From Prevotella sp. (GTDB lineage: Bacteria > Bacteroidota > Bacteroidia > Bacteroidales > Bacteroidaceae): DNA of 64,000 bases. Of this stretch, positions 10,203 through 53,538 are shown piece after piece. Where the stretch lies: NCBI GenBank assembly GCA_017960525.1, contig JAGCZA010000079.1:1-64000 (forward strand), written 5' to 3'. Numbering within the stretch: position 1 is the first letter of the stretch; each line of letters begins with the position of its first letter. The translations under genes and the position numbers were made by a program. The notes under the pieces are model-generated. The model was not told the DNA's origin. It saw only the letters and a program-made list of their open reading frames with translations, and made no database searches.

Positions 10203-10261
10203 TTTGGTTCGTCCAAACTACAGGTTTGGTTCGTCCAAACTGGGAGTTTGGTTCGTCCAAA
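10203..10261 (-). repeat. 22-bp semi-palindromic repeat array, locus 1 (3 copies)
   Basis: TTTGGTTCGTCCAAA occurs at 10203-10217, 10225-10239 and 10247-10261, exactly 22 bp apart, with 7-bp spacers CTACAGG and CTGGGAG. It is the reverse complement of the arrays at 29.7, 40.4 and 53.5 kb. The TTCGT reading points toward the SPFH gene, whose promoter box lies 158 bp further on. The rest of the 10129-10477 gap holds only that promoter. Confidence 0.85.
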
Positions 10262-10419
10262 TTTTTGGGCTGGTCTGATACGGCTTTTCTGGATGTTGAG
10301 CCTGGCTTGTCTCAGGGTTGAGGATGCTTGGATTTCAGGAAAGTGTTTAATATCCTTAAAAACTGTGAGGATAGTGTTAAAGATTGTGCGCTTTTCATTG
10401 CCAGATGGAAAATAATCAA

Positions 10420-10427
10420 TATCTTTG
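10420..10427 (+). promoter_or_regulatory. Promoter -7 box for the SPFH operon
   Basis: TATCTTTG followed by CAA matches the Bacteroidetes -7 consensus. It lies ~50 nt upstream of the first ATG of the three-gene operon. Confidence 0.7.
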
Positions 10428-10477
10428 CAATATCAAATTGATATCATACTTTATCAACTCATTAAAACTTAATCGTG

Positions 10478-11443
10478 ATGGAAAACAAGGAGTACACATT
10501 CAATGGAATGGTGATGAACGGCTTCCTGATGCTGTTCGTGAACCTCGCAGTTCTGATTCTCTCAATCGTCGGCGTCATATTCGCCATCATACGACTTGAC
10601 GAAACTAATGGTGACAGCGGAGGCTGGCTGTTGGGTGGCTGCTTATTATTATTGGTGGCAAACATTATTATGTGGTGCGGCCTGATGATGCTGGAACCCA
10701 ACGAAGCCAAGGTGACGACGTGGTTTGGCAAGTACAGTGGCACTTTTGCACGGACGGGTTTTTACTGGATAAATCCGTTTTACGGCACGAAGAAAGTGTC
10801 GCTGCGTGCGCGCAACCTCGATGCAGAACCCATCAAGGTGAACGACAAGACGGGCAATCCTGTGATGATCGGCCTGGTGCTTGTGTGGAAACTGAAGGAC
10901 ACGTACAAGGCCCTGTTTGAGGTCGATTCGCAGACGATGGCGGCTACGCCCAATACGGTTGGCAGCGACACCAAGGGCCTGATGAACGCCCTCGAAAACT
11001 TTGTCCGCGTGCAGAGCGACGCCGCCCTGCGTCAGGTGGCTGGCCAGTATGCCTATGACGACGAGGACAACAGGAACAATGAACCCACGCTGCGCTCGAG
11101 TGCCGAGGAGATAAACGAGCAGTTGGAGCAGAAACTCGACGAGCGGCTGGCGCTGGCAGGCATCGAAGTAGTCGAGGCCCGCATCAACTATCTGGCCTAC
11201 GCGCCTGAGATTGCTGCCGTGATGCTGCGCCGCCAGCAGGCTTCGGCCATCATCACAGCCCGCGAGAAGATTGTGGAAGGTGCCGTCTCGATGGTGAAGA
11301 TGGCTCTTGACAAGCTTTCCTCAGAGAACATCGTCGATCTTGATGACGACAAGAAGGCCGCAATGGTCTCGAACTTGCTGGTGGTGCTCTGTGGCGATGA
11401 CTCTGCCCAGCCGGTGGTGAACACGGGCACGCTGAACCACTAA
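10478..11443 (+). CDS. SPFH/Band 7 (stomatin-like) membrane protein
   Basis: This 321-aa protein has two N-terminal hydrophobic segments (residues ~10-40 and ~52-70). A SPFH/PHB domain follows (NEAKVTTWFGKYSGTF...GFYWINPFYG, ~73-270) with the typical VPVMIGLVLVWKL-like strand. A helical C-terminal stretch reads RRQQASAIITAREKIVEGAVSMV. SPFH proteins oligomerise on membranes and organise microdomains or partner proteases. No NfeD or protease partner is adjacent; instead a small ribbon-helix-helix protein and a DUF1648-like membrane protein follow. The ATG at 10478 is preferred over the GTG one codon earlier. A 22-bp repeat array lies upstream. Confidence 0.88.
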   Translation: MENKEYTFNGMVMNGFLMLFVNLAVLILSIVGVIFAIIRLDETNGDSGGWLLGGCLLLLVANIIMWCGLMMLEPNEAKVTTWFGKYSGTFARTGFYWINPFYGTKKVSLRARNLDAEPIKVNDKTGNPVMIGLVLVWKLKDTYKALFEVDSQTMAATPNTVGSDTKGLMNALENFVRVQSDAALRQVAGQYAYDDEDNRNNEPTLRSSAEEINEQLEQKLDERLALAGIEVVEARINYLAYAPEIAAVMLRRQQASAIITAREKIVEGAVSMVKMALDKLSSENIVDLDDDKKAAMVSNLLVVLCGDDSAQPVVNTGTLNH

Positions 11444-11465
11444 ACAATGCATAATTCATAGATAG

Positions 11466-11657
11466 ATGGCAGAGAAAAGTACCAAGAGCTTTATCCTCCG
11501 CGTCGATGCTGAGACGATGAACGCGATAGAGGCCTGGGCTGCTGACGAATTCCGCAGCACCAACGGCCAGCTGCAGTGGATCATCACCGAGGCCCTGCGC
11601 AAAGCCAAGCGTCTGCCCAAGAAAAAACAGCAAGCACAAAAAACAGATATGGTATGA
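11466..11657 (+). CDS. Arc-type ribbon-helix-helix protein
   Basis: This 63-aa protein has the RHH pattern: a β-strand (KSFILRVDAETMNAI) and two helices (IEAWAADEF, then NGQLQWIITEALRKAKRL), ending in a basic tail (KKKQQAQK). RHH proteins of this size usually bind DNA as dimers through the strand. It lies 22 nt after the SPFH gene and overlaps the next gene by 4 nt. It could be an autoregulator of this operon or, by analogy with Arc-like proteins, act elsewhere; there is no toxin-like partner. Confidence 0.8.
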   Translation: MAEKSTKSFILRVDAETMNAIEAWAADEFRSTNGQLQWIITEALRKAKRLPKKKQQAQKTDMV

Positions 11658-12136
11658 GTAAGGTTAAGCTTAGAAAAGCCCGCACGTCAAAGGACATTAT
11701 CTTCGACAGCGTGTTCCTGGTCTTGACGGCAGCCGTCTGGGGCATCATCGCCTGGCTCATCAGCCGTGCACCGGATGTCGTGCCCACCCACTTCGGCCCG
11801 TCGGGCGATCCCGATGCCTACGGACCGCCTACTGCCATCATCATCCCCAGCGTGATTATGACGGTTGTAGCCCTCGTCTGCGCTTTCAGCATCTACTTTC
11901 CTGGCGGCAGCGTCAATCTGCCCTTTGTCGAAGGACCGGGCAATGAACGCCAGAAGCGGTTGGCCGTAATGCTGATGAGGATTGTCGCACTGATGATGCT
12001 GGTCATTATGCTGTTCATTGCTGTCTACACGCTGGCCCTGAAAGACCACGACAGCATTATGCCGGTTGTGGTTATCGTTGGCGCGATGATTGGCGTTTCG
12101 CTCGTCTTCACCGTCTTGATGTACAGGGCCAGATAG
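11654..12136 (+). CDS. DUF1648-like integral membrane protein
   Basis: This 160-aa protein has four membrane segments (residues ~15-36, ~57-77, ~98-120 and ~132-155). Between the first two is the short motif APDVVPTHFGPSGDPDAYG. That 'P.HF...G.PD.YG' pattern is the hallmark of DUF1648 (SdpI-related) proteins. In Bacillus the related SdpI gives immunity to a killing peptide, but a role here is not implied. The ATG overlaps the stop of the RHH gene (ATGA), and the frame open upstream of it lies within that gene. It ends the operon just before a perfect hairpin. Confidence 0.8.
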   Translation: MSKVKLRKARTSKDIIFDSVFLVLTAAVWGIIAWLISRAPDVVPTHFGPSGDPDAYGPPTAIIIPSVIMTVVALVCAFSIYFPGGSVNLPFVEGPGNERQKRLAVMLMRIVALMMLVIMLFIAVYTLALKDHDSIMPVVVIVGAMIGVSLVFTVLMYRAR

Positions 12137-12147
12137 CGCACCGAAAA

Positions 12148-12184
12148 AGCGGGCAAGGATGAATCACGCTCATCCTTGCCCGCT
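12148..12184. terminator. Bidirectional terminator hairpin
   Basis: A perfect 15-bp inverted repeat (AGCGGGCAAGGATGA / TCATCCTTGCCCGCT) with a 7-nt loop lies between converging genes. On the minus strand the stem is followed by a run of T, so it is a strong intrinsic terminator for uxaC. The plus side lacks a clear T tract. Confidence 0.88.
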
Positions 12185-12211
12185 GTCAGTAAAGCTGTGG
12201 CGGCTGCCGCA

Positions 12212-13618
12212 TCAATAGAACTTGAAGTAGCGGCGGGCGTTGTTGTAGGAGATGTCCTGCACCATTTTGCCCAGCAGTTCGCGGTCGTCGGGCAGCAGGC
12301 CGCGCTCCACGTCGTTGCCCAGGAGGTTGCAGAGGATGCGGCGGAAGTACTCGTGGCGGGGGTAGGAGAGGAACGAGCGGCTGTCGGTGAGCATGCCCAC
12401 GAAGCGCGAGAGCAGTCCGAGCACGGAGAGGGCGTTCATCTGCTTGATCATGCCGTCCATCTGGTCGTTGAACCACCAGCCTGAGCCGAACTGTATTTTT
12501 CCCGGCTCGCCTCCCTGGAAGTTGCCCAGCATGGTGGCGATGACCTCGTTGGCGCAGGGGTTCAGGGTGTAGATGATGGTGCGTGTGAGTTTGCCCTTCA
12601 TGTTCAGTCGGTTGAGGAATTTCGACATGGCCTTGGCTGTGTTGAACTCGCCGATGGAGTCGAAGCCTGTGTCGGGGCCGAGTTGGTTGTACATGAGGGT
12701 GTTGTTGTCGCGGATGGCGCCGTAGTGGAACTGCTGTGTCCAGCCTGCGTCGGCGTCCATTTCGGCCATTACGGTGAGGAAGCAGTTCTTGTACTGGCGT
12801 ATCTCGTTTTGCGAGAGTTGCTGGCCGCGCATGGCTTTCTCGAAGATGGTCTCTATTTGCGAGTCGGTGTACTCCTCGTCGTAGAACTCTTCGATGCCGT
12901 GGTCGCTGAGTTTCGAGCCTTGTGCCTCGAAGAACTCGTGGCGCTTCTTCAGGGCGTCGACCATGTCGGCGAATTTCACGATGTTCGTGTCTGCGGCGCC
13001 GGCGAGTTGCTCGACGTATTTGGCGAAGTCGGGCTTCTCGATGTTCATTGCCTTGTCGGGGCGCCAGGCGGGTATCATCAGGGGGTCGTCCTGTGCCTTG
13101 TGCTTGGCGTATTCGATGTGGTTGTGCAGGTCGTCCACGGGGTCGTCGGTGGTGCAGACGCACTCCACGCGGTAGTGCTTCATCAGTCCGCGTGCCGAGA
13201 ACTCAGGCTTCTGCAGTTTCTCGTTGCACTCGTCGAATATCTCGCGGGCGGTCTTCGGGCTGAGCAGTTTTTCGATGCCGAAGGCGGTCTTCAGTTCCAG
13301 GTGTGTCCAGTGGTAGAGGGGGTTGCGCAGGGTGTAGGGTACGGTTTCTGCCCATTTCTCGAACTTCTCCCAGTCGGTGGTGTCCTTGCCTGTGCAGTAG
13401 CGCTCTTCCACGCCGTTTGTGCGCATGGCGCGCCATTTGTAGTGGTCGCCGCCCAGCCACAACTCTGTTATGCTCTTGAAGCGGTGGTCGTTGGCCACCA
13501 TTTCCGGAATCAGGTGGCAGTGGTAGTCGATGATGGGCATTTTGGCCGCATAGTTGTGGTACAGGTCCTGGGCGACCTCAGTCTCCAGGACGAAGTTTTT
13601 GTCGTTAAATGCTTTCAT
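12212..13618 (-). CDS. uxaC: Glucuronate isomerase
   Basis: This 468-aa cytoplasmic enzyme interconverts D-glucuronate and D-fructuronate (and galacturonate/tagaturonate), the first step of hexuronate breakdown. The metal-binding motif DYHCHLIPEMVA lies near residue 31. CTTDDPVDDLHNH (~160), FGSGWWFNDQ and LSYPRHEYFRRILCNLLG near the end are typical of UxaC. The ATG at 13618 (MKAFNDKNFVLE) gives the usual length; longer in-frame starts would lie upstream of or in the promoter. With kdgK at 32 kb and the α-glucuronidase at 27-29 kb it fits a glucuronoxylan route. uxaB/uxuA steps are not in this window. Confidence 0.96.
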   Translation of the reverse strand: MKAFNDKNFVLETEVAQDLYHNYAAKMPIIDYHCHLIPEMVANDHRFKSITELWLGGDHYKWRAMRTNGVEERYCTGKDTTDWEKFEKWAETVPYTLRNPLYHWTHLELKTAFGIEKLLSPKTAREIFDECNEKLQKPEFSARGLMKHYRVECVCTTDDPVDDLHNHIEYAKHKAQDDPLMIPAWRPDKAMNIEKPDFAKYVEQLAGAADTNIVKFADMVDALKKRHEFFEAQGSKLSDHGIEEFYDEEYTDSQIETIFEKAMRGQQLSQNEIRQYKNCFLTVMAEMDADAGWTQQFHYGAIRDNNTLMYNQLGPDTGFDSIGEFNTAKAMSKFLNRLNMKGKLTRTIIYTLNPCANEVIATMLGNFQGGEPGKIQFGSGWWFNDQMDGMIKQMNALSVLGLLSRFVGMLTDSRSFLSYPRHEYFRRILCNLLGNDVERGLLPDDRELLGKMVQDISYNNARRYFKFY

Positions 13619-13657
13619 AATTGTTTTAGATGGGTTTGAAATAAGTTTTGGTGCCTG

Positions 13658-13665
13658 CAAAGTTA
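13658..13665 (-). promoter_or_regulatory. Promoter -7 box for uxaC
   Basis: TAACTTTG on the minus strand, followed by CAG, lies 39 nt upstream of the uxaC ATG. Confidence 0.7.
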
Positions 13666-13737
13666 CGCATATTTTTCAAAACAGCAAAGTTTTTCCGAAA
13701 AATAGTTCCAATATTTGGCCAGTTCGGGAAAATGTAG

Positions 13738-13745
13738 TATTTTTG
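13738..13745 (+). promoter_or_regulatory. Promoter -7 box for the YfhO gene
   Basis: TATTTTTG followed by CACCCC, with TTTGG at 13714-13718 in the -33 position, lies ~34 nt upstream of the ATG at 13779. Confidence 0.7.
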
Positions 13746-13778
13746 CACCCCACATAATTAATTGTTTAGAAAGTAGTC

Positions 13779-16370
13779 ATGCTGAAACAACTGAAGTCGT
13801 GGCTGCCCGACGTGCTGGCAGTCGTCTTTTTTGCCATACTGGCATTTGCCTATTTCTATCCAGCCGACGTGGAAGACCGCGTGCTGAACCAGGGCGACAT
13901 TTCCGCTGGCATCGGTGCCGGCCAGGAGCAGATTGAGTATATGAACAGGACGGGCGAGCGCACCCGATGGACAAACGCCCTGTTCTCAGGCATGCCCACC
14001 TATCAACTCTCGCCGTCGTACGACAGCACCTCCACGCTCTCGGCTGTCGAGAAAGCCTACCACCTGTGGCTGCCCGACAATGTGTGGTACCTCTTTGTCT
14101 ATCTGCTGGGCTTCTACATCCTGCTGCGCGCTTTCGACTTCCGCCAGCACCTGGCTGCGCTCGGCTCCGTCGTTTGGGCCTTCAGCACCTATTTCCTCAT
14201 CATCATTGCCGCCGGCCACCTGTGGAAAGTGATGGCCCTGGCCTATCTGCCGCCCATGATTGCGGGCGTCGTGCTGGCATACAGGGGGAAATACCTGTGG
14301 GGCCTCGTGGTCACAGCACTCTTCGGGGCGCTGGAGATTCACGCCAACCACGTTCAGATGACCTACTACTACACGTTTGTCATCTTCCTGATGGTCATTG
14401 CCTTTATGGTCGACGCCATCAGGCAGAAACGGTACCAGCATCTGCTGAAAGCCACTCTCGCCTGCATAGCGGGTGCCCTGCTGGCTGTGCTCGTCAATGC
14501 GTCGAACCTCTACCACACTTGGGAATACTCCAAAGAGACGATGAGGGGCAAGAGCGAACTGGTGAAAGAGAACACCAGCAACCAGACGGACAGCGGCCTG
14601 GAGCGCTCATATATTACCGATTATAGTTACGGCATCGGCGAGACTTGGACGCTGCTCATTCCCAACGCAAAAGGCGGCACGTCGATGCATCTGCTGGGCG
14701 AAACTGACGCCGGCAAAAAGGAGGGTACAACCCACTTTATCAATGCCGGAGAGGGGCAGCGCGTGCCTTACGCCTACTTCTTTAATCAAATGCCTCAATA
14801 CTGGGAAAGCAGTATGGAGGAGGGCAGCAACGGCACAATGGGGCCGGTCTACGTGGGAGCCTTCGTGATGATGCTCTTCATTCTCGGCCTGCTCATCGTG
14901 AAAGGACCTATAAAGTGGGCACTCCTCGCCGCAACCATCCTGAGTGTGATGCTGGCCTGGGGCAAGAACTTTATGGGGCTTACCGACCTGTTCATCGACT
15001 TTATGCCGATGTACGCCAAGTTCCGCGCCGTCGAGAGCATCCTCGTCATTGCCGAGTTCTCCATCCCGCTGCTGGCTATGCTGGCACTGCGTCAAGTCGT
15101 TGACCATTCACCATTGACCATTGATCATTCGGCTGCGCGTAGCAATAAAGGCCAATCTTCAATCTTCAATCTTCAATCTTCAATCTACATCGCTTTCGCG
15201 CTCACGGGCGGCATCTGCCTGCTCTTTGCCCTGCTGCCCTCGCTCTTCTTCGATTTTTACACTACTGCCGAATATGCCCAGTTCCACCAGATGCTGCCTG
15301 CCGCCGAAGCCGACGCCTTCCTGAAAAGCCTGGCGGAAGTACGACAGAGCGTGTTCACTTCCGACTGCTGGCGCTCGCTGATTATTATAATAATTGGTAC
15401 ATTTCTCCTCCTGCTCATCTGTCGCGCCAAAAAACAGAAATATGTGCCGGTGCTTGCACTCATCGCCCTGTGCCTTGCAGACCTCTGGATGGTGAACAAG
15501 CGCTACCTGAACGACAGTATGTTCAAGCCCCGAAAGGAAAGACAGCAAATCAGACCGATGACAGAGGCAGACAGGCAAATCCTCGACGATCCGTCGCTCG
15601 ACTATCGCGTGCTCAACCTCAACGGCAACGTGTTCAACGAAAACGAGACTTCCTACTACCATAAGAGCGTGGGAGGCTATCACGCCGCCAAACTCCGCCG
15701 CTATCAAGACCTCATCGAGCACTACATCAGCCGTCAGCAGGGTGAGGCCCGACAGGCCATCAGCACCTATTATGGCGACCTCAGTCAGGTAAACGGCGAT
15801 AGCCTTTGGAACGTTCTCAATATGCTGAACACCAAGTATTTCCTGCTCGTCAACCCGCAGGAGCCGCAAAAGAGTTTCAGCCTGCAGAACCCCTACGCCT
15901 TCGGCAATGCCTGGATGGTGGACGAAGTGCGCTATGTGGCTAACGCCAACGAGGAGATAGACGCTCTGGGCGAACTCGACCTCCGCCGTCTGGCCGTAGC
16001 CGACAAGCAGTTTGAACAGGTGCTGGGGACGTCCGCTCCGCAAGACTCCACTGCCTCAGTCGTTCTCAACGCCTACGAGCCTAACCAGTTGAAATACACC
16101 GTCAACAGCCCGAAGGGTGGGGTGGTTGTGTTCTCCGAAATCTACTATCCCGGATGGGAGGCCACTATCGACGGCCAGCCAGCAACGCTCGGGCGCGCCA
16201 ACTACGTGCTGAGAGCGCTGAAGGTCGCTCCTGGAAAGCACGAGGTGGTGCTCAGTTTCTTCCCCAAGACCATCAGCACGACGGAGAAGATTGCCTACAC
16301 GGCTCTGGCCGTCCTCGGCATCCTGGTGCTTGCCCTGATGGTGTCGCGGCTCCGTCAGCGCAAGGAGTAG
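13779..16370 (+). CDS. YfhO-family polytopic membrane protein
   Basis: This 863-aa protein has about a dozen membrane segments and a large C-terminal extracytoplasmic domain (residues ~590-830). A final membrane helix reads IAYTALAVLGILVLALMV. The N-terminal loop with NQGDISAGIGAGQEQIEYMNRTGE and SGMPTYQLS is typical of Bacteroidetes YfhO/DUF6541-like proteins. These resemble GT-C glycosyltransferases and are thought to transfer sugars from lipid carriers; Bacillus YfhO is implicated in lipoteichoic acid glycosylation. A stretch at residues ~441-470 is encoded by two blocks of 7-bp tandem repeats and appears to be an inserted linker between membrane helices. Confidence 0.88.
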   Translation: MLKQLKSWLPDVLAVVFFAILAFAYFYPADVEDRVLNQGDISAGIGAGQEQIEYMNRTGERTRWTNALFSGMPTYQLSPSYDSTSTLSAVEKAYHLWLPDNVWYLFVYLLGFYILLRAFDFRQHLAALGSVVWAFSTYFLIIIAAGHLWKVMALAYLPPMIAGVVLAYRGKYLWGLVVTALFGALEIHANHVQMTYYYTFVIFLMVIAFMVDAIRQKRYQHLLKATLACIAGALLAVLVNASNLYHTWEYSKETMRGKSELVKENTSNQTDSGLERSYITDYSYGIGETWTLLIPNAKGGTSMHLLGETDAGKKEGTTHFINAGEGQRVPYAYFFNQMPQYWESSMEEGSNGTMGPVYVGAFVMMLFILGLLIVKGPIKWALLAATILSVMLAWGKNFMGLTDLFIDFMPMYAKFRAVESILVIAEFSIPLLAMLALRQVVDHSPLTIDHSAARSNKGQSSIFNLQSSIYIAFALTGGICLLFALLPSLFFDFYTTAEYAQFHQMLPAAEADAFLKSLAEVRQSVFTSDCWRSLIIIIIGTFLLLLICRAKKQKYVPVLALIALCLADLWMVNKRYLNDSMFKPRKERQQIRPMTEADRQILDDPSLDYRVLNLNGNVFNENETSYYHKSVGGYHAAKLRRYQDLIEHYISRQQGEARQAISTYYGDLSQVNGDSLWNVLNMLNTKYFLLVNPQEPQKSFSLQNPYAFGNAWMVDEVRYVANANEEIDALGELDLRRLAVADKQFEQVLGTSAPQDSTASVVLNAYEPNQLKYTVNSPKGGVVVFSEIYYPGWEATIDGQPATLGRANYVLRALKVAPGKHEVVLSFFPKTISTTEKIAYTALAVLGILVLALMVSRLRQRKE
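15100..15127. repeat. Heptameric tandem repeat (TTGACCA-type, 4 units) inside YfhO
   Basis: TTGACCA, TTCACCA, TTGACCA, TTGATCA in frame-neutral tandem, encoding VDHSPLTIDHS. The protein frame stays open. Confidence 0.8.
15153..15186. repeat. Heptameric tandem repeat (CAATCTT-type, 5 units) inside YfhO
   Basis: CAATCTT repeated four times and a partial fifth unit, encoding SSIFNLQSSIY. It lies 25 bp after a different heptamer block, and the two together make an apparent linker. Confidence 0.82.
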
Positions 16371-16456: not shown

Positions 16457-16497
16457 CACCCGCAATTCAGAAACCCTGTTTTTCTGAACTGCCGTGG

Positions 16498-21100: not shown

Positions 21101-21628
21101 CGCAAGTTGATTGATGTTGAATTGAGTAACGACGAAATGAAAGACAAGACCCGCTTCGTGATGAACCCACAAGCCTCGATGGACTATGAATTGAATTGCG
21201 ATGCCTCGAAGTTTATGTCGATGGATGCTGCCGTTCCCCAGATTTGGACTGTTGAGAATGGCATGCAGCTGGCCATCAATGAGCGCCCGTTGGACAACGG
21301 CACCGTACAGATTGGCTTCAAGGTGGCTAAAGGTGGTGACTACACCATTAGTGCTCCCCGCTGTCAGTTCCAGAACATTGTGCTGGTGGATAACGAGACG
21401 GGCATCGAGACCGACTTGAGTAATGGTGGCAGCCATACTTTTACTGCCAATGCAGGCACTAACGACAGCCGCTTCGTGCTTCGTGTGGGTGGCACAGTAG
21501 TTACAAGTGTAAATACAATTGACAATTCACAATTGACAATTGACCATTACTACAACCTGAACGGCCAGCGCATCGTCGCACCGCAGAAGGGTCTCTACAT
21601 CGTGAACGGAAAGAAGGTCATTAAGTAA
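18185..21628 (+). CDS. Exported LRR_5 surface protein with KGLYIVNGKKV tail
   Basis: This 1147-aa protein has a signal peptide (MKKPRLLLALFVASIGAVQSASA). The N-terminal half (~30-230) is a β-rich region reminiscent of carbohydrate-binding folds. A β-sandwich segment occupies ~235-360. Roughly seven LRR_5/BspA repeats (LTAIGNNAFNGS, LTSVGTSAFYNC, ITTIEGSAFSGC) span ~440-640. The tail YYNLNGQRIV..KGLYIVNGKKVIK resembles a short type-A (T9SS-like) sorting signal. The stretch just before it (VNTIDNSQLTIDHYY) comes from a 7-bp tandem repeat. It heads an operon with three further genes, the next one starting 8 nt on. Role in adhesion or glycan binding is inferred only. Confidence 0.83.
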   Translation: MKKPRLLLALFVASIGAVQSASARVAPELPAAQALVSGTSYYLYNVIEGKFACHSTTSTSYAALGTYGDKVIITATGNEGEYTIQWANNNYYWKGYDTYVNSNSGTSNYNYFTIAESSRGYTIQRSSRNTSYYKADEFVGFDGSNGDRLSPALAEGSIHWQLFSVDEAEYYMAKHKLYTYLEVADQYNFYVTQYDLVYDNPASTTAELDLAQSTLKEALDMSQNYVSPSWTEYPILFQNNTDNKWTLYNSNKALQWSIHKDYNSALETTSTLMGTVNVDTDATLCYTYDGDSYATMRVYLDGELVQIIYPNQSSDARRYYIEVTAGKHDITWTCLVNDARTNNTSYSHYYYLKEIGIMNTPTITPATTTVEGQLGTEVLKLVDPVSSVKKIIISGVIGADDWTTIGLMVNAFSIDMSGATATADMPASMFTKTKFPFLHNVKLPQGLTAIGNNAFNGSDVENEMTFPESLLTIGNNAFDGSKIRAAYMQEGLTSVGTSAFYNCKFLENASFPASAVTIPGSCFSHCCNLRTFTIPEGITTIEGSAFSGCSQFNPRFPTTLEQIESSAFYNTATDQLVISENMTVNQGAFSYCSNLEYAEWPTSFSKATNYSFDNSTNAIVTNCPKLKDVYLKSPTVVTYDYQRFFDGNTLSEITLHVPDFLVSAYKLDPYWYQCNVVGFNSADISDWNITQPLVLNPGQRIGGTPNLHFSGSNARLTVNGDDTQTINDLSIVYCPKSYYYNGYSYQKEQQWGMMLSNSNHVSIAGELSENIKTNSNNWYFLTLPFDTKVGDIVATAEETGVSTSYAIRYYDGSTRASNGTGNNWKNYSKDDIIPAGTGFIYQTAKPATSKFVAQNNATKQYILSNNEFVKSLEANASDVTANKGWNLVGNPWQTYYNIHKLNFTAPITVWNLSSKKYEAYSIIDDDYAIKPLEAIFVQCPDEINSISFPIDGRQLTDVIESQNAARVATPSERKLIDVELSNDEMKDKTRFVMNPQASMDYELNCDASKFMSMDAAVPQIWTVENGMQLAINERPLDNGTVQIGFKVAKGGDYTISAPRCQFQNIVLVDNETGIETDLSNGGSHTFTANAGTNDSRFVLRVGGTVVTSVNTIDNSQLTIDHYYNLNGQRIVAPQKGLYIVNGKKVIK
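21516..21550. repeat. Heptameric tandem repeat (CAATTGA-type, 5 units) in the LRR gene
   Basis: CAATTGA, CAATTCA, CAATTGA, CAATTGA, CCATTAC lie exactly between the last β-domain and the C-terminal tail, encoding the linker TIDNSQLTIDHYY. Confidence 0.8.
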
Positions 21629-21636
21629 TAAATGTT

Positions 21637-23204: not shown

Positions 23205-24398
23205 ATGAGAAAGAAAATACTGATGCTGCTGGCACTGTTTGCCGGTGTGGTGACTGCCACCGCCGACAATATGGTGTCGGTGAGCAGTGCCCTCATCCCC
23301 CAGGGAAAGACGGGCAGCTTCAACATCGAGCTGACAAACAGCGACACCTTCGTGGCCTTCCAAATGACGCTCACACTGCCCGAGGGCATCACCTTCGAGT
23401 CGGCCACAAAGGGCAACCGCTATGAGGAGAGCCACAGCATGGGCGTGTCGCAGAACGGGCAGATCGTCACGTTCACCCTCAACTCCGGCACCAACGAGGC
23501 CATCCGCGGCAACAGCGGCGCTCTGATTACCGTCAGCGTCTCTGCCGATGCCGATATTGAGGCAGGCACCAAGCTTACGGCCACGCTGGGCAACATGGAG
23601 TTCGCACGGAAGGACGAAACCTTCATCCGCCCCGATGCCTTCGACTTCGAGATTGAGATTACCGACCGTGTCATCCTCGACGAGAACTCCACCGTAGCCC
23701 CCACGGCGCAGACGGATAAGGTGAATGTGCTGGTGAAGCGCACCATTAAGGCTGGGCAATGGAGCACCATCGTGTTGCCCTTCCAGATGAGCAAGGCAAA
23801 TGCCGAGAAAGCCTTTGGCAGTGACTATCAGCTGGCCGAGTTCGACAGCTTCGACACCGACTACGGCGATGACGAAGAGAACATGACTCCGCTGGGCATC
23901 GTCATCAATCTGAAGGACTACACCATTCCTGCCCGTGGCGGCTGGGCTGCCGGCAAGCCTCTGCTCATCAAGGTGTCGCAGGACATCGAGAGCTTTGAGG
24001 TGGACAATGTGGCGATTAGCAATACGGTTGCCGATGCTGTGAAGAGCGACGAGGTGAACGGCCTCAGCGGCAAGCTGACAGGCTCGTTTGTGAAAACTAC
24101 AATCCCTGCCGACGGTTTGTTTGTCAGTAATAATCAGTTCTGGTACTCATCTGGCAAGACTATGGTGAAAGCTTTCCGTTGTTGGTTCGAGTTAGATGCC
24201 GTGCTTGACAAGGAAACGGAGTTCGCCTCTCGCATAACAATTAATTTCATTGATGATAGCGAGACTACTGGCATTAATGATATTAAGGATGGAAGATTGA
24301 AAAATGATAATTCAGTCTTTAACTTGCAAGGTCACCGCATCAATGGAAATGAGAAGAAAGGACTTTATATCGTGAATGGCAAGAAGGTAATCAAGTAA
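23205..24398 (+). CDS. Exported cohesin-like domain protein with KGLYIVNGKKV tail
   Basis: This 397-aa protein has a signal peptide (MRKKILMLLALFAGVVTATA). A cohesin-like domain occupies residues ~22-150 (VSSALIPQGKTGSFNIELTNSD, FQMTLTLPEGITF, LITVSVSADADIEAGTKLTATLGNMEF). A second β-rich module at ~165-350 (GQWSTIVLPFQMSKANAEKAFG) is seen in many Prevotella surface proteins. The tail FNLQGHRI...KKGLYIVNGKKVIK is the sorting-like tail also found in the LRR protein. Cohesin-like similarity is a fold-level impression; true cohesin binding is unproven. The stop is followed 19 nt later by the small acidic peptide gene. Confidence 0.78.
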   Translation: MRKKILMLLALFAGVVTATADNMVSVSSALIPQGKTGSFNIELTNSDTFVAFQMTLTLPEGITFESATKGNRYEESHSMGVSQNGQIVTFTLNSGTNEAIRGNSGALITVSVSADADIEAGTKLTATLGNMEFARKDETFIRPDAFDFEIEITDRVILDENSTVAPTAQTDKVNVLVKRTIKAGQWSTIVLPFQMSKANAEKAFGSDYQLAEFDSFDTDYGDDEENMTPLGIVINLKDYTIPARGGWAAGKPLLIKVSQDIESFEVDNVAISNTVADAVKSDEVNGLSGKLTGSFVKTTIPADGLFVSNNQFWYSSGKTMVKAFRCWFELDAVLDKETEFASRITINFIDDSETTGINDIKDGRLKNDNSVFNLQGHRINGNEKKGLYIVNGKKVIK

Positions 24399-24417
24399 AG
24401 AAAGGAGGAATGTGACT

Positions 24418-29656: not shown

Positions 29657-29737
29657 TTTGGACGAACCAAACTCCTACTTTGGACGAACCAAACTCCCAG
29701 TTTGGACGAACCAAACTCCCAGTTTAGACGAACCAAA
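29657..29737 (+). repeat. 22-bp semi-palindromic repeat array, locus 2 (4 copies)
   Basis: TTTGGACGAACCAAA at 29657, 29679 and 29701, and TTTAGACGAACCAAA at 29723, all exactly 22 bp apart, with spacers CTCCTAC, CTCCCAG and CTCCCAG. It fills the gap between the GH3 stop and the GH115 start. Read in the TTCGT sense it points to GH115. Confidence 0.88.
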
Positions 29738-40421: not shown

Positions 40422-40480
40422 TTTGGACGAACCAAAGTCATAGTTTGGACGAACCAAACTCCCAGTTTGGACGAACCAAA
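40422..40480 (+). repeat. 22-bp semi-palindromic repeat array, locus 3 (3 copies)
   Basis: TTTGGACGAACCAAA at 40422, 40444 and 40466, exactly 22 bp apart, with spacers GTCATAG and CTCCCAG. It lies in a divergent intergenic region between the promoters of rmlA and the REC-REC-PPDK_N gene; the TTCGT reading points to rmlA. Its place between two divergent promoters argues against it being a terminator of either gene. Confidence 0.88.
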
Positions 40481-47442: not shown

Positions 47443-47538
47443 ACAAAAATTTCCGTAACACCCTCATGGAAAAATGATAAATATAATGTAAAAGCGCAAT
47501 TTTTCCTTTATTTTTCATTTAGTATCGTCACTTTTTCG

Positions 47539-47546
47539 TAACTTTG
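47539..47546 (+). promoter_or_regulatory. Promoter -7 box for purN-recN
   Basis: TAACTTTG followed by CACCC, 27 nt upstream of ATG 47574. It overlaps the in-frame TTG at 47544 and so excludes that longer start. Confidence 0.7.
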
Positions 47547-47573
47547 CACCCTAATTTTTCATATAAAAGAGGA

Positions 47574-48152: not shown

Positions 48153-48158
48153 AAGATT

Positions 48159-51100
48159 ATGCTGAAACAACTATATATCAAGAACTACGCGCTGATTGAC
48201 GAGTTGAATATGGCTTTCAATAGCGGATTCTCAGTAGTGACCGGCGAGACAGGAGCAGGAAAGAGCATCATTCTGGGAGCCATAGGTCTGCTGTTGGGAC
48301 AGCGGGCGGACAGTAAGACTGTCAAGATGGGTGCTGCCAAGTGTGTCATTGAGGCGCATTTCGACTTGTCGCGCTACGGTATGGAGGATTTCTTCGAGCA
48401 GAACGACATCGAATACGACGCTGCCGACACCATCGTCCGACGCGAACTGACGGCTACGGGCAAGAGCCGCGCTTTCATCAACGATACGCCTGCCCCGCTG
48501 ACCCTCCTCAAGGAGTTGGGTGAGCGGCTGGTGGATGTTCACTCACAGCACCAGAATCTGTTGCTGGGCAAGCAGGACTTCCAGTTGAACGTGGTAGACA
48601 TCATCGCCGATGATGGTAACGAGTTGGAGGCCTATCGCCAGGCATATACCAGTTACCAGGACACTCGCCAGCGACTGGAGACCCTGAAGGCCGACATTGA
48701 GCGGGGGCGGCAGAACGCCGACTTCCTCCAGTTCCAGACCACCGAACTGGCCGATGCCAACCTGACCGACGGCGAGCAGGAAGAACTGGAGCAGCGCAGC
48801 GACACGATGGCCCATGCCGAGGACATCAAGCGAGCACTCTACCAGACTGACGACATCTTGACGGGCGACGACACGGGTGTGGTGCCCCGTCTGCGCACCG
48901 CCGCCGCACAACTCAGGAGCATTGAGCGCGTACTGCCCGATGCCAAGGAGTTGGCCGAAAGGCTGGAGAGTTGCCACATAGAACTGAAGGATGTGGCTGC
49001 CGAGGTGAGCCATCGTCTGGAAGATATCGACTTCGACCCAGCGGAGCAGGAAACGGTGAACAACCGTCTGGACCGCATCTACGAACTTGAGAAGAAATAC
49101 CGTGCCGACAGCGTGTCGCAATTGCTCGACATCCTGGCGGACCTGCAGCGCCAGTTGTCTGCCATCGAGAACAGCGATGAGACCCTTGCCGAGTTGCAGC
49201 AACAGTTGGACAGCGAGGAACGCCTGTGCCGTGAGCGGGCCGAAGTGCTCACCAAGAAGCGACAGGCTGCTGCCAAGGAGATTGAGCGGCAGATGGGCGA
49301 CCGTCTGGTCACGCTGGGGATGCCCAACGTGCGCTTCCAAACTGCCATCACGCAGGAGACACTTTCGCGTAATGGCCAGGACAAGGTGTCGTTTCTCTTC
49401 AGCGCCAACACGTCGACGCCCCTGCAACCCGTGTCGCAGGTGGCCTCTGGTGGTGAGATTGCCCGTGTGATGCTGGCCCTGAAGGTAATGATTAGCGGAG
49501 CCGTGAAACTGCCAACAATTATCTTCGACGAGATTGACACCGGCGTGAGCGGCAAGACGGCTGAGCAGATGGCACGTATGATGGACGAGATGGGCCGCCA
49601 CGACCGCCAGGTCATCAGCATCACCCATCTGCCACAGATAGCCGCCGTGGGAAAGACCCACTACAAGGTCTTCAAGGAAGAGACCGCACAGGGCACCGTC
49701 AGCCGAATGGTGATGCTCAACGACAAGGAGCGTGTGCACGAAATTGCCCAGATGCTAAGCGGCAGCAGCGTCACCGATGCCGCCATCCAGAACGCCCGCG
49801 CCTTGCTGCGCCCATTGCTCACCTGTCTCTTTGTGCTGCTTTCGTTTGCTGCGGCAGCCACAGCCAGCGCCCAGTCCTGGGTGAAGAAAGCGTCGAAGGC
49901 TGTGTTCACCCTGAAGACCTTCGACGATAGCGGCACGCTCTTGGGCAGTGCTACCGGCATTTTCGTGGGCAATGGTGGCGAGGCCATCAGCAGTTATGCC
50001 CCCTTCAAGGGCGCCTCACGTGCCGTGGTCATCGATGCCTCCGGCAAGGAGGCCGAGGTGGACTGCATCCTTGGAGCCAACGAGACCTACGACGTGGCCA
50101 AGTTCCGAGTGAAACTGAACAAGACGGTTCCCGTCTCTCTGGCCCCCGCCAAGCAAGAGGCCGGCCAGCAAGTGTGGCTGCTGCCCTATATGCAGACCAA
50201 AAACATCAAACAGGGCACCATCCGCAAGGCGGAGACCTTCAACCAGTACTATGGCTACTATACCGTGGCCACCAGACCGACGTTGCCAACCGTAGGCACA
50301 CCCCTGATGAACGAGGCTGGCGAGGCCGTCGGACTGATGCAACAGCCCAATCAGCAGAGCGATACGCTGGTTTATGCCGTGAGTACGTGCTTTGCCGACA
50401 GCCTTACCGTCACGGGGCTGAGCATCAACGACCCTGTGCTGCGTGCCATCCACATCAGGAAGGCATTGCCCACCGACATCAACCAGGCCCTGCTGACACT
50501 TTACGTAGGCTCGGCGCAAATGGACTCCGCTGCCTACGCCTCGCTGGTGAACCAGTTCATCGAACAGTTCCCGCAAAGTTCCGACGGCTATGTCTATCGT
50601 GCACAGTTGGCCGCCAATGGTGGCGACTATGCCGCTGCCGACCGCAGTATGGCTGAAGCCCTGAAGACGGGCGACAAGACTGACGAGACCCACTTCAGTT
50701 ACTCGCAACTGATTTACCAGAAAGTGCTTATGCGACCGCAGGACGACTATGCGACGTGGACGCTCGACAAGGCTCTCGACGAGGCAGTCGAGGCTTATCG
50801 GGTGAACGAACTGCCCGCCTACCGCCACCAGCAGGCCACCGTGCTCTTTGCACAGAAGAACTATGCTGAGGCCGCCAAGGTCTATGAAGAGTTGTTCGTG
50901 TCGCCGTTGCGCTCGCCCGACCTTTTCTACGAGGCATCGCGCTGTCAGGTGATGATGGGCGACACCGCCCGCCAACTGGCTTTGCTCGACAGTTGCGTGG
51001 CTCAGTTCAACAAGCCCTACCTGAAGGAGGCTGCACCCTATGTGCTGGCCCGTGCACAGGCACGTATGGTGGCAGGGCACAACCGCGAAGCCGTGACCGA

Positions 51101-51479
51101 CCTAAACGACTATGAGCAGTTGATGGTGGCACAGGTGAACGACCAGTTCTACTATCTCCGCTTCCAGGCTGACGTGGCAGGGCGGCTCTTCCAGCAGGCC
51201 CTTAACGACATCAGGAAAGCCATCGAAATCAATCCCCAAAGCGACCTCTATTATGCCGAGAAGGCATCGTTGGAGGTGCGCGTGGGACTTTACGACGAGG
51301 CGATGGCCACCGCACAGGAGTGCATCCGCGTGGCTCCAGACCATAGCGACGGCTACCTCTTCCTGGGCCTGGCCCAGTGCTTGAAGGGCCAGAAGGCTGA
51401 GGGTGTGAAGAATCTGCGGAAGGCTGGTGAGATGGGCGACCCTCAGGCTGAGGGACTCATCGAGAAATATTCAAAATAG
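48159..51479 (+). CDS. recN: RecN DNA-repair ATPase fused in frame to exported pseudo-protease/TPR protein
   Basis: A single 1106-codon frame. Residues 1-~551 are a complete RecN, an SMC-like repair ATPase: Walker A GETGAGKS (29-36), coiled coil, the ASGGEIARVML signature (~429) and Walker B TIIFDEIDTGVSG (~453). It ends at the normal RecN terminus, AIQNARALL. It then runs without a stop into RPLLTCLFVLLSFAAAATASAQ, which looks like a complete signal peptide. After this comes a trypsin-like fold (~573-780) and at least six TPR-like repeats (~790-1100). No stop or ATG separates the halves. Either a deletion fused two genes, or the second half is also started internally (TTG at 49803). An exported domain fused behind a cytoplasmic repair protein is hard to reconcile with function. 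Confidence 0.85.
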   Translation: MLKQLYIKNYALIDELNMAFNSGFSVVTGETGAGKSIILGAIGLLLGQRADSKTVKMGAAKCVIEAHFDLSRYGMEDFFEQNDIEYDAADTIVRRELTATGKSRAFINDTPAPLTLLKELGERLVDVHSQHQNLLLGKQDFQLNVVDIIADDGNELEAYRQAYTSYQDTRQRLETLKADIERGRQNADFLQFQTTELADANLTDGEQEELEQRSDTMAHAEDIKRALYQTDDILTGDDTGVVPRLRTAAAQLRSIERVLPDAKELAERLESCHIELKDVAAEVSHRLEDIDFDPAEQETVNNRLDRIYELEKKYRADSVSQLLDILADLQRQLSAIENSDETLAELQQQLDSEERLCRERAEVLTKKRQAAAKEIERQMGDRLVTLGMPNVRFQTAITQETLSRNGQDKVSFLFSANTSTPLQPVSQVASGGEIARVMLALKVMISGAVKLPTIIFDEIDTGVSGKTAEQMARMMDEMGRHDRQVISITHLPQIAAVGKTHYKVFKEETAQGTVSRMVMLNDKERVHEIAQMLSGSSVTDAAIQNARALLRPLLTCLFVLLSFAAAATASAQSWVKKASKAVFTLKTFDDSGTLLGSATGIFVGNGGEAISSYAPFKGASRAVVIDASGKEAEVDCILGANETYDVAKFRVKLNKTVPVSLAPAKQEAGQQVWLLPYMQTKNIKQGTIRKAETFNQYYGYYTVATRPTLPTVGTPLMNEAGEAVGLMQQPNQQSDTLVYAVSTCFADSLTVTGLSINDPVLRAIHIRKALPTDINQALLTLYVGSAQMDSAAYASLVNQFIEQFPQSSDGYVYRAQLAANGGDYAAADRSMAEALKTGDKTDETHFSYSQLIYQKVLMRPQDDYATWTLDKALDEAVEAYRVNELPAYRHQQATVLFAQKNYAEAAKVYEELFVSPLRSPDLFYEASRCQVMMGDTARQLALLDSCVAQFNKPYLKEAAPYVLARAQARMVAGHNREAVTDLNDYEQLMVAQVNDQFYYLRFQADVAGRLFQQALNDIRKAIEINPQSDLYYAEKASLEVRVGLYDEAMATAQECIRVAPDHSDGYLFLGLAQCLKGQKAEGVKNLRKAGEMGDPQAEGLIEKYSK
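49803..51479 (+). CDS. Possible separately translated pseudo-trypsin/TPR exported protein
   Basis: Starting at the in-frame TTG codon 49803, this would be a 558-aa exported protein: signal peptide LRPLLTCLFVLLSFAAAATASAQ, a trypsin-like domain and C-terminal TPRs. In the protease-like region the usual catalytic residues seem altered. The His-containing strand reads AISSYAPFKGA without His, and the Ser motif GNSGGP is replaced by VGTPLMNE; the Asp block (YDVAKFRV) is kept. It is therefore probably a non-catalytic, periplasmic or surface scaffold. Separate translation is inferred only from the signal peptide in the middle of the fused frame. Confidence 0.4.
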   Translation: MLRPLLTCLFVLLSFAAAATASAQSWVKKASKAVFTLKTFDDSGTLLGSATGIFVGNGGEAISSYAPFKGASRAVVIDASGKEAEVDCILGANETYDVAKFRVKLNKTVPVSLAPAKQEAGQQVWLLPYMQTKNIKQGTIRKAETFNQYYGYYTVATRPTLPTVGTPLMNEAGEAVGLMQQPNQQSDTLVYAVSTCFADSLTVTGLSINDPVLRAIHIRKALPTDINQALLTLYVGSAQMDSAAYASLVNQFIEQFPQSSDGYVYRAQLAANGGDYAAADRSMAEALKTGDKTDETHFSYSQLIYQKVLMRPQDDYATWTLDKALDEAVEAYRVNELPAYRHQQATVLFAQKNYAEAAKVYEELFVSPLRSPDLFYEASRCQVMMGDTARQLALLDSCVAQFNKPYLKEAAPYVLARAQARMVAGHNREAVTDLNDYEQLMVAQVNDQFYYLRFQADVAGRLFQQALNDIRKAIEINPQSDLYYAEKASLEVRVGLYDEAMATAQECIRVAPDHSDGYLFLGLAQCLKGQKAEGVKNLRKAGEMGDPQAEGLIEKYSK

Positions 51480-51497
51480 ACCGTCTGTCCGCCTGTT

Positions 51498-51555
51498 AAT
51501 GGTATGAAGGGAAAAAAGATTTAGATGACTTATTTCCCTTCATACCATTTTTTCA
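51498..51555 (+). terminator. Terminator whose 3' arm is the end of the GH2 coding sequence
   Basis: AATGGTATGAAGGGAAA (51498-51514) pairs perfectly over 17 bp with TTTCCCTTCATACCATT (51533-51549), then six T. The right arm is the coding end (KWYEGK and stop) of the converging GH2 gene. Confidence 0.8.
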
Positions 51556-53344
51556 TAATGTAGAAGGCCTTCTTCTTTTCGCCCTTGTCGGAGTAGAGAC
51601 CCTTGCGGTTGTAGTAGTCCTGGATGCCGTCAAGCACGCGGCGGGGCGAGCGGAAGTCCTTCAGCACCCAAGGCGTGGTGCCGGCCAGACCCTCTATCTT
51701 GTCGAGCATAGCGGTGTTCTGGATATAAAGATTCTCTTGGAACTCCTCTGTCCAGCGCTGGTTTTTCTCGCCGTGCAGGCCGAACTTGGCTCCTCCGCCG
51801 AACTCGCTCACAATGACGGGCTTGTCGTAGGGCACCTCCCACGTCATCTTAGGCGCGTCGTTCACGTCGCGGTACCAGCCCACATACTGGTTGAAACTGA
51901 CCACATCAACGTGCTCGTGCATATTGTCCTGCAAGCGGTTCACGTAGTTCGACGCGCCTGTCACCTCCATTGCCATTGATATGAGGCGGGTGTTGTCGAG
52001 TGTGCGGGCATACTGCGCCAGCGACCCTAAGAACTTGTCGCGCTCGGCGGAGTGGGGCGTCTCGTTGGCAATGCTCCAGATGATGATATTGGCGCGGTTC
52101 TGGTCGCGGCGAATCATATCGGTCAGTTGTCGGCGGGCGTTCTGGAACGTTTTCTCGTTCTTCCACGAAATGGTCCAGTAGACAGGGATTTCCGACCAGA
52201 CGAGCATACCCATCCGCTCGGCCTCTCGGATGGCATATTCGTTGTGCGGATAGTGTGCCAGCCGCACGAAGTTGCAATTCATCTCCTTGGCCCACGTCAG
52301 CAGCGTGTGGGCCGTCTCCGTGTTGTTGGCGCGGCCACCGCCGTTGGGAGCCTCCTCGTGGATGCTGACGCCCCTAAGGAAGATAGGCTTGCCGTTGAGC
52401 AGAATCTGCTTGCCGCGGGCCTCAATGGTGCGGAAACCGATTTCGTCGCGCAGCGTGTCGCCGTCGAGGACAAGTTCGACCTTGTAGAGTTTCGGATTTT
52501 CCGGCGACCAGAGGGTGAGCATCTTCTGTTTTACGAAGAAACTGGAGCCGATGCAACCTTCGGCATCGGTGGTAAATGTCTGTTTCACTTTCAGTTCCGG
52601 GATGTTCAGTTGCACCTGCCGTCCGGCCTCTTTCGCGTTCAGGTTCAACGCGAGGTCAATCTTGTTCATTCCCTTTTTCCCCACCTCCTTGCTCAGGGTA
52701 AGCGCGTAATTTTCAATATAAGTGGTGGGCACCTGAATGAGCATCACGTCGCGGGTGATGCCGCCATAGTTCCACCAGTCGAAGATTTGCGTGGGCACAT
52801 TGTCGGCGTGGCGCTTGTTGTCCACCTTCACGATGACCACATTCTCTCCTTCGCGCAAGAGGTCGGTCACGTCGGCGTTGAACGGCGTAAAACCTCCCAC
52901 GTGCTGCATCACCTTCTCGCCGTTCACATAGACGATGGCCTCATAGTTCACGGCACCGAAGTAGAGCAGCGTGCGGCGGTCGTTGCTCTTCCTGAAGTTG
53001 AACGACCGCTTGAACCACACCGTCCCTTCGTAGAAAAAGAGCCGTTGGTCCTGCGTGTTCCAGTCGCCCGGGATTTGCACCGTGGCCGCCTTGTCGAAGT
53101 CGTACTCGATCAGGTCTTCAGGCCGTTGCGGCTTGGCATTGCGGAAGAACCCCCACCGCGTGGGGTTCATACGGTAGTCGTAGTAGCCCTCCTCCTGCAC
53201 GTCCACGATGTAGTGCCACGGGCCGTTGAGCGACACGGTTTGGCGGTTCAACACATTGCCCACCAAGGGCACTTCGGCGGCCTGTGCCGTCAGCCCCATC
53301 AGGGCCAAAGTCAGCAGCGCAACTGTCAGTCTGATTCTTTTCAT
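51530..53344 (-). CDS. Exported GH2 β-galactosidase / β-glucuronidase-like enzyme
   Basis: This 604-aa protein has a signal peptide (MKRIRLTVALLTLALMGLTAQA). The sugar-binding domain is at ~30-200 (DWNTQDQRLFFYEGTVWFKRSF), the Ig-like domain at ~205-300, and the barrel at ~310-600. The barrel has RGVSIHEEAPNGGGR, acid/base Glu in IIIWSIANETPHS (~430) and nucleophile Glu in KPVIVSEFGGGAKFG (~520). The single-Ig compact length is like β-glucuronidases and short β-galactosidases; substrate is unclear. It has its own promoter and a 22-bp array ~90 bp upstream of that. Its 3' end doubles as a terminator arm for the facing gene. Confidence 0.9.
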   Translation of the reverse strand: MKRIRLTVALLTLALMGLTAQAAEVPLVGNVLNRQTVSLNGPWHYIVDVQEEGYYDYRMNPTRWGFFRNAKPQRPEDLIEYDFDKAATVQIPGDWNTQDQRLFFYEGTVWFKRSFNFRKSNDRRTLLYFGAVNYEAIVYVNGEKVMQHVGGFTPFNADVTDLLREGENVVIVKVDNKRHADNVPTQIFDWWNYGGITRDVMLIQVPTTYIENYALTLSKEVGKKGMNKIDLALNLNAKEAGRQVQLNIPELKVKQTFTTDAEGCIGSSFFVKQKMLTLWSPENPKLYKVELVLDGDTLRDEIGFRTIEARGKQILLNGKPIFLRGVSIHEEAPNGGGRANNTETAHTLLTWAKEMNCNFVRLAHYPHNEYAIREAERMGMLVWSEIPVYWTISWKNEKTFQNARRQLTDMIRRDQNRANIIIWSIANETPHSAERDKFLGSLAQYARTLDNTRLISMAMEVTGASNYVNRLQDNMHEHVDVVSFNQYVGWYRDVNDAPKMTWEVPYDKPVIVSEFGGGAKFGLHGEKNQRWTEEFQENLYIQNTAMLDKIEGLAGTTPWVLKDFRSPRRVLDGIQDYYNRKGLYSDKGEKKKAFYIMKKWYEGK

Positions 53345-53381
53345 AAGGCTGTCACAAAGTTTTCATTGTCAATCTCGCTTG

Positions 53382-53389
53382 CAAAGTTA
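53382..53389 (-). promoter_or_regulatory. Promoter -7 box for the GH2 gene
   Basis: TAACTTTG on the minus strand, followed by CAAG, ~37 nt upstream of the GH2 ATG. Confidence 0.68.
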
Positions 53390-53479
53390 AGCAATAATCC
53401 TGTCATCCGCAAGTTTTCAGCCCCTTTTCTTCAACATTTCCCCTTCCTCCCTTCCGGAAGCCAAAAACCGGCCCAAAAA

Positions 53480-53538
53480 TCTGGACGAACCAAACTCATA
53501 GTTTGGACGAACCAAACCAGGAGTTTGGACGAACCAAA
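53480..53538 (+). repeat. 22-bp semi-palindromic repeat array, locus 4 (3 copies)
   Basis: TCTGGACGAACCAAA at 53480, then TTTGGACGAACCAAA at 53502 and 53524, exactly 22 bp apart, with spacers CTCATAG and CCAGGAG. It lies in a 587-bp divergent gap; the TTCGT reading points to the GH2 gene. Confidence 0.87.

Follow-up and report, generated by a model that had tools for sequence, protein, structure and literature searches.

Phased arrays of short dyad repeats in a Prevotella genome: a probable dispersed element with a shared two-turn pitch and species-private sequence

A stretch of 64,000 nucleotides from Prevotella sp. (bases 1-64000 of contig JAGCZA010000079.1, here C13, of assembly GCA_017960525.1), which is referred to as the window, harbors four intergenic arrays of one short semi-palindromic unit repeated at a fixed spacing of 22 bp. 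The own genome of the window (G000) is available as a 3.97-Mb draft. The arrays are located among genes for an SPFH/Band 7 protein, several glycoside hydrolases (GH), an rmlA-type nucleotidyltransferase and a PPDK_N-domain protein (Table 1), and the second of them is separated from the end of the GH3 gene by 14 bp. All four were found to be intergenic by the gene calls of a simple script of our own, which were made on sampled stretches rather than whole genomes.

Table 1. Arrays of the 22-bp-spaced unit in the window
Feature	Position	Strand	Setting
Array, 3 units, period 22	10203..10261	-	between DUF6624 gene (+) and SPFH/Band 7 gene (+)
Array, 4 units, period 22, fourth unit TTTAGACGAACCAAA	29657..29737	+	146-bp gap, GH3 gene (-) / GH115 gene (-)
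Array, 3 units, period 22	40422..40480	+	divergent gap, rmlA-type nucleotidyltransferase gene (-) / PPDK_N-domain gene (+)
Array, 3 units, period 22, first unit TCTGGACGAACCAAA	53480..53538	+	divergent gap, 135 bp upstream of GH2 gene (-)

The original prediction, made from the window alone, had described 13 copies of one 15-bp word in these four arrays with a period of 22 bp in every case. A scan for TTTGGACGAACCAAA at up to 3 mismatches confirmed the copies, their positions and the period, giving 14 matches against 1.61 expected (the largest number in 100 shuffles was 7), of which 13 are taken in by the four arrays and the fourteenth, at 13647 with 3 mismatches, is isolated. The start-to-start spacing is 22 bp in 9 of 9 steps. 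The single repeated word holds for 11 of the 13 units, which are exact copies of TTTGGACGAACCAAA or its complement, and the units at 29723 and 53480 each carry one change that had gone unmentioned. A TAnnTTTG motif, the Bacteroidota promoter motif, was seen by eye between array and gene at three of the four arrays, as stated earlier.

A search of the own genome revealed 427 copies of TTTGGACGAACCAAA within one mismatch and 0 of the reversed control pattern, which at 2.9 such units per array corresponds, as a rough estimate, to about 150 arrays. Comparison showed the four window arrays to be members of one genome-wide family. Its anatomy was read in a G000 sample of 413 kb from six contigs; because these contigs were picked for their array content, the density of 69 units within one mismatch per 413 kb (hand count) is above the genome average. 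With outer units taken at up to 5 mismatches, the sample holds 24 arrays, namely one of 2 units, 14 of 3, 8 of 4 and one of 5. The units mostly read TTTGG-ACGAA-CCAAA, with TTAGG..., AAAGG... and TTTGCTCCGTCCAAA as recurrent variants, and they are co-oriented in 22 of the 24 arrays, the other two (C13:68909 and C6:61522) being mixed in register. In addition, 156 perfect adjacent pairs were found in the own genome, and the linkers of the 65 listed pairs comprise 33 types. Position 1 is C in 56 linkers, position 2 is T in 49, position 6 is A in 61 and position 7 is G in 48; the three central positions vary, and several linkers are present in both orientations (the mostly N loci L197, L207, L209 and L210 were left out before linkers and periods were counted). 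At the edges of the 24 arrays, the 8 bases before are A-rich (86 of 192) and the 8 bases after are T-rich (86 of 192).

The sister species G382 gave the best match to the window PPDK_N protein among 398 genus genomes (own included), with 94% protein identity, and its DNA is 80-88% identical to that of G000 in syntenic stretches and 95% in one stretch. TTTGGACGAACCAAA occurs 50 times in the G000 sample (413 kb) and 0 times in 400 kb of G382, in which no TTTGG-N5-CCAAA was found either. The pattern AGATAA-N7-TTATCT, on the other hand, is present 0 times in the same G000 sample and 90 times in the G382 sample (both strands counted, equal to 45 places), where its arrays have three units in 14 of 14 cases. 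Among 30 triplets read, the first unit was AGATAAGTGCCACTTATCT in 21, the middle unit AGATAAGTGCCTTTTATCT in 26 and the last unit AGATAAGTGGCACTTATCT in 27; since whole triplets with position-specific units recur, the triplet appears to be the copied unit in this species. The first and last unit are inverted in most of the 30. The whole repeat is about 150 bp long, its flanks and the order of its units are conserved, and its left end is sharp; scoring 40 of 148 candidates gave 40 distinct places, and no autonomous copy was among them. Of a further 13 arrays with full flanks, 8 carry the common flanks as judged by eye. At two other places in G382 (L093 14200-14520 and L099 18560-18760), AATTACG arrays with a period of 21 bp lie between degenerate, partly inverted 22-bp repeats of the GTTTTTGCTCCGGGG type, a layout as if arrays insert near older arrays.

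The pitch was then considered apart from the letters in a survey of three-unit arrays of any sequence, covering 1.60 Mb of ten genus genomes with 187.7 kb of gaps, in which simple repeats were excluded and runs of period 11 or less were dropped by the detector. Sixty-four arrays were detected at 22 bp and 10 at 21 bp; none of the other periods between 16 and 35 exceeded 4, and three shuffled sets gave 1 array in all. At least one array was present in 9 of the 10 genomes, with none in the 47 kb of G264, and when G000 and G382 are removed the remaining eight genomes still give 29 arrays at 21-22 bp against 6 at the other 18 periods. Coding DNA (1.40 Mb) yielded 1 array at period 22 and 2 at period 21. 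When pairing was scored, 78% of the 74 arrays had two or more of their three units with at least 5 of 7 complementary positions, a share that was 25% among 4,000 random windows; at 6 of 7 the shares were 32% and 2%. Comparison showed related species to carry other private families of the same geometry: the common traits, on the sequences compared, are the two-turn pitch and usually dyad symmetry, and the sequence is not kept. The idea put forward in the original prediction, that 22 bp represents two helical turns, gains weight, because three-unit arrays of unrelated sequence peak at 22 and 21 bp. Heptamer runs of TAAAGTC/CAAAGTC/TATAGTC at window 56552-56733, which match themselves at shifts of 14 and 21, and similar runs at 7718-7761 and 15100-15129 may also have the two-turn pitch, but being simple repeats they were not counted.

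Beyond the genus, 5 such arrays were found in 320 kb from other genera of the same family (3 of 17 loci, with the short or mostly N loci L220, L224 and L228 dropped), 1 in 164 kb from other families of the class (9 loci) and 0 in 140 kb from other classes (7 loci), these outgroup samples being small. The exact adjacent pair of the own family, present 156 times at home, was found in 0 of 60 other family genomes. A loose double TTTGG-N5-CCAAA occurs in 2 of 149 other genus genomes and in none of 117 further genomes of the phylum. A scan of 84,980 species, from which the own genome was possibly left out, gave 10 stretches, none with the ACGAA centre. Three-unit arrays among them belong to Xylanibacter brevis (ATCC 19188, a cultivable relative) and four uncultured Prevotellaceae or Bacteroidales; Prevotella ihumii and two Clostridia stretches have two units only, which may be due to chance, and one Acidaminococcaceae stretch is a 21-bp tandem repeat. 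Two uncultured Prevotellaceae genomes carry, in apparently different gene settings, a composite of two 22-bp arrays in the same register, TTTGGCCCGTCCAAA followed by AGCACGCCCGTGCT (L185 at about 3150-3350 and L186 at about 1720-1920).

Comparison of orthologous gaps showed presence, absence and replacement of arrays between species. Upstream of the PPDK_N gene, G382 has two arrays, one of AATTACGTCGTAATT units at 21 bp and one of the TTTTGCTCCGGGG type at 22 bp. In G128, AACGGAGCCTCCGTT and AATGGAGCCTCCATT units are present, in which both arms changed together. These two genomes were the only ones with clear arrays among 29 relatives looked at, in several of which the gap is not comparable because the stretch upstream is coding. 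The C10:50079 array occupies a tight same-strand gap of 85 bp in G000, compared with 12 bp in G382; of 18 relatives searched for this gap, 4 had the gene well matched. Three TGTACA-N7-TGTACA units occupy the gap in G097 and three TACACACGGTGTGTA-type (ATACACACGGTGTGTA-type) units in G379, both sets at 22 bp, whereas G103 shows no such array; unrelated palindrome triplets thus fill this gap in three species. The C10:35879 array, in a gap of 111 bp in G000, is absent from G382 (56 bp). Conversely, two G382 arrays occupy gaps of 229 and 284 bp, and the corresponding genes of G000 overlap or are separated by 8 bp.

All 24 arrays of the G000 sample are in or at gaps, two of them touching gene ends. 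By hand count 16 lie in tandem gaps, 6 in divergent gaps, 1 in a convergent gap and 1 at a contig end, and a de novo detector, which returned 23 arrays (one of another family), gave 13, 8, 1 and 1; this spread is near the base content of the gap types, 26.5, 11.1, 1.4 and 2.8 kb in the same order. It had been claimed that the strand reading TTTGGTTCGTCCAAA always points to the next gene start, which is true of the two tandem gaps of the window. At its two divergent gaps, the choice of the next gene is arbitrary, and in the 16 tandem gaps of the 413-kb sample this strand points toward the next gene start in 6, away from it in 8 and is mixed in 2 (hand count). A regulator array aimed at the next gene is accordingly unsupported. 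Orientation is close to random, and arrays are missing from the sister species at two orthologous gaps; this agrees in part with two of the outcomes that the original prediction had named as refuting, random orientation genome-wide and orthologous loci that lack the array but are expressed identically.

The neighboring genes are equally heterogeneous. Among 38 scanned proteins flanking or near arrays, which represent part of the array-adjacent genes, mixed functions with none in common were observed, including glycoside hydrolases, SusD, fasciclin, SufB/D, Dxr, IPP transferase, cytidylate kinase, nucleotidyltransferases, an Xer-type integrase and unknowns. Since these functions are mixed, the array genes do not constitute a regulon, and the uniform position and direction, relative to the promoters of related genes, that characterize regulon operator arrays were not found. 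Nor did 137 array-adjacent proteins contain a common neighbor family; the largest group has 13 members, most of which share a C-terminal GLYIVNGKK-like tail or internal repeats, and no mobile gene was present. A repeated coding end resembling KGLYIVNGKKVI occurs at window 21587-21632, 24357-24402 and 56068-56113, at the C-termini of several genes, and is presumably a shared sorting tail.

As RNA, the window arrays fold better than their shuffles on the TTTGGTTCGT strand (z -4.8, -4.5, -2.0 and -6.1), and z values of -8.6, -12.7 and -6.8 were obtained for arrays of G382, G379 and G097, respectively. A single nested hairpin is predicted for three of the four window arrays, G382 and G379, and two hairpins for the 40422 array and G097. 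Of 4 G379 arrays, 2 have a pair of linkers that are exact reverse complements of each other and the other 2 have a pair that comes close to this, which makes the triplet one long palindrome there; the G000 triplet is not one, and the trait in common is therefore the single unit rather than a long hairpin. This favors recognition of the individual unit, either by a dimer bound to duplex DNA or in the form of a small hairpin. No Rfam family was above threshold at the arrays of the window or at 12 G382 loci; the known-RNA scan returned a tRNA in the window, and a tRNA and below-threshold unrelated families in the 12 G382 loci plus one window stretch. A separate inverted repeat with 29-nt arms and a 6-nt loop, GCAAAATTGCACTACTTTAGTGCAAAAAA, is located at window 56875-56938.

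Candidate partners for mobilization were sought among several gene families. The domain PF01797, which marks the REP-associated tyrosine transposases (RAYT; REP, repetitive extragenic palindromic), was searched in 12 genomes and matched in 8 (5 of 5 in a first set, 3 of 7 in a further set), with no match in G379, G265, G345 and G516, all of which carry 21-22 bp arrays. Seven RAYT loci from five genomes, all of the first set, were read, the five matches of the further set, in G016, G097 and G519, standing outside this count. At none of the seven did the main array family of the genome, the same repeat that a REP or REP doublet forming a hairpin (REPIN) would place beside its RAYT gene, accompany the gene, and the single locus in each of G000 and G382 had no array within 1.5 kb. 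L113 (G128) has a two-unit repeat at 22 bp, and five loci besides L113 and L114 have none. By eye, the Y1_Tnp (RAYT-type) gene of G382 (L117) lies among ordinary repeats of the GTAGGGGC and TGTAGGGGCAGGCCC types. At L114 1950-2240 (G116), a PF01797 gene is near a TTTTAAAGTCTAAAAG-type 22-bp array and TCTAGGGGCTGG-type repeats, and both repeat types recur elsewhere in G116 (L128, L129).

A tyrosine recombinase was another candidate. One G000 array runs into the 3' end of an Xer-type recombinase gene, with the stop codon within an array linker; at C10:61560-61581 (L056 1560-1581; L263) an array unit forms the last codons of this gene, and the gene of the sister species ends differently and without an array. 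A 22-bp array was found at 3 of the 8 best loci (L263-L270; in G000, G097 and G128) and at none of the other 5, the family differing each time, and 18 loci in 8 genomes included 5 with a 22-bp array and 1 with a 21-bp match, so that no consistent link emerged. A phage or plasmid origin was likewise rejected: the own and sister patterns gave 0 in viral contigs, two phage-record matches were weak (E 4), and no match was obtained in 72,556 plasmid records at the sensitivity used, in searches run with a low-complexity filter against collections from which records near the own genome may be missing.

Among known systems, REP sequences of the GTAG and CGTC families are close in kind, being short palindromes (PMC3733652) in hundreds of intergenic, non-coding copies that form species-specific families. 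The arrays share the high-copy intergenic palindrome and differ in a unit of 15-19 bp, below the 20-40 bp of REP, in the fixed 22-bp pitch with three or four units, in their presence also in divergent gaps and in the want of a consistent RAYT neighbor. A constant GTAG or CGTC end tag was found neither in the units nor in the 65 listed linkers, CGTC occurring only inside the G000 core. REPINs (PMC3116915) resemble the arrays as dispersed, non-autonomous, hairpin-forming units larger than one palindrome that are copied whole; they are inverted doublets tied to RAYT, whereas the arrays are phased dyad triplets, co-oriented in most cases in G000. Tandem REP arrays described there have other spacings, 72 and 112 bp for one type (PMC3116915). 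Because the tag test failed and no consistent RAYT link was found, the arrays are regarded as a new variant of the REP-like kind and not as REP.

The G382 version, a repeat of about 150 bp with conserved flanks, recalls miniature inverted-repeat transposable elements, but no target duplication was detected, and no clear terminal inverted repeats were seen by eye at its outer ends. Plasmid iterons, which lie next to a replication initiator gene in an origin, likewise consist of 15-19 bp boxes that recur about every 22 bp along one DNA face; the present arrays, by comparison, are many, chromosomal and mostly made of dyad units, and no replication initiator domain was found among the 38 proteins scanned. 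A 15-bp core with 7-bp linkers of 33 types in 65 does not correspond to clustered regularly interspaced short palindromic repeats, in which long repeats alternate with unique spacers of similar length (cas genes were not searched for), and intrinsic terminators are suggested by the T-rich bases after the array, yet 6 of 24 arrays lie in divergent gaps. The original prediction had known no named element of this form, and none was found here either: the literature covered, which mostly excludes subscription papers, yielded no account of palindrome arrays phased at 22 bp for this group.

Taken together, the array pattern speaks for a spreading DNA element and not for a gene switch. The arrays are probably (roughly 0.6) a dispersed, non-autonomous, REP-like element built of usually three or four short dyads of 15-19 bp at 22, sometimes 21, bp, which is the favored one of the three options first proposed (regulator-binding array, silencer, REP-like element). 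A trans-acting enzyme or DNA-binding protein would recognize each dyad as a dimer on one DNA face, or alternatively each dyad as a hairpin in single strands, and the same factor would spread the arrays, copied as arrays. They would end up in gaps because selection acts against insertions into genes, and any effect on neighboring genes would be a by-product.

Several observations weigh against this reading. No mobilising gene was found, and target duplication was not found in 30 G382 or 24 G000 elements, the true flank pairs being no more alike than swapped ones, a comparison whose power is limited by unclear ends. Exact insertion junctions are unreadable, the intergenic DNA being too diverged, and presence or absence rests on sister species at about 80-88% DNA identity instead of strains of one species. 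The right end of the G382 repeat is ragged (query ends 134-183), and 5 of the 13 further arrays with full flanks are without the common flanks (by eye). Moreover, 22% of the 74 surveyed arrays are not dyads even by the loose score, and a strict palindrome score was passed by only 1 of 23 G000 arrays. At one of the seven RAYT loci, L114, an array of three units at 22 bp lies about 180 bp from the gene, which tells against complete separation of arrays from RAYT. Finally, G000 linkers vary and cores hardly do, and the cores could thus also be selected binding sites.

The last point belongs to the account in which a dimeric regulator or nucleoid protein of fast-changing specificity binds three or four phased sites as species-specific operator arrays and silences or insulates genes. 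Dyad units, the same-face pitch and variable linkers between nearly constant cores would all fit cooperative dimer binding; we nonetheless consider this account unlikely, in view of the about random orientation, the absence of a function common to the 38 neighbor proteins, the presence of arrays in tight same-strand gaps such as C10:50079 and the complete replacement between sister species in the samples compared. A role in the message is quite improbable: transcribed hairpins, acting as bidirectional terminators or 3'-end protectors and spread by selection, would agree with the folding of array RNA relative to shuffles and with the A-rich and T-rich edges, but 6 of the 24 G000 arrays are divergent and 1 convergent (8 and 1 of 23 by the other detector), the pair-breaking variants TTAGG and AAAGG recur, and Rfam offers no family above threshold.

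That the arrays are REPINs of the classical RAYT system, moved as single-stranded hairpins by a Y1 transposase, would explain their intergenic, species-specific and hairpin-forming nature and the lack of detected target duplication, and the PF01797 matches in 8 of 12 genomes and the array near the L114 gene would find a place in it. Such an origin is nevertheless very improbable given the four array-bearing genomes without a PF01797 match, the array-free surroundings of the single loci in G000 and G382, the missing end tag and the co-oriented units in 22 of 24 G000 arrays.

On the reading of the arrays as a spreading REP-like element, a further and more tentative proposal can be made, namely that dyad triplets in Prevotella-type bacteria are laid down or spread by an undescribed machine that uses a two-turn ruler and changes its sequence preference completely from one sister species to another, the geometry being inherited and the sequence not. 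If true, this two-turn machine would represent a second, RAYT-independent origin of REP-like repeats. The class would be defined by geometry, as three or more units at 21-22 bp, and is missed by sequence searches because each species uses its own letters. The arrays give a concrete test of how REP-like repeats originate in genomes without a detectable RAYT, and they affect how intergenic regions, promoters and operons are interpreted in a major group of gut and rumen bacteria.

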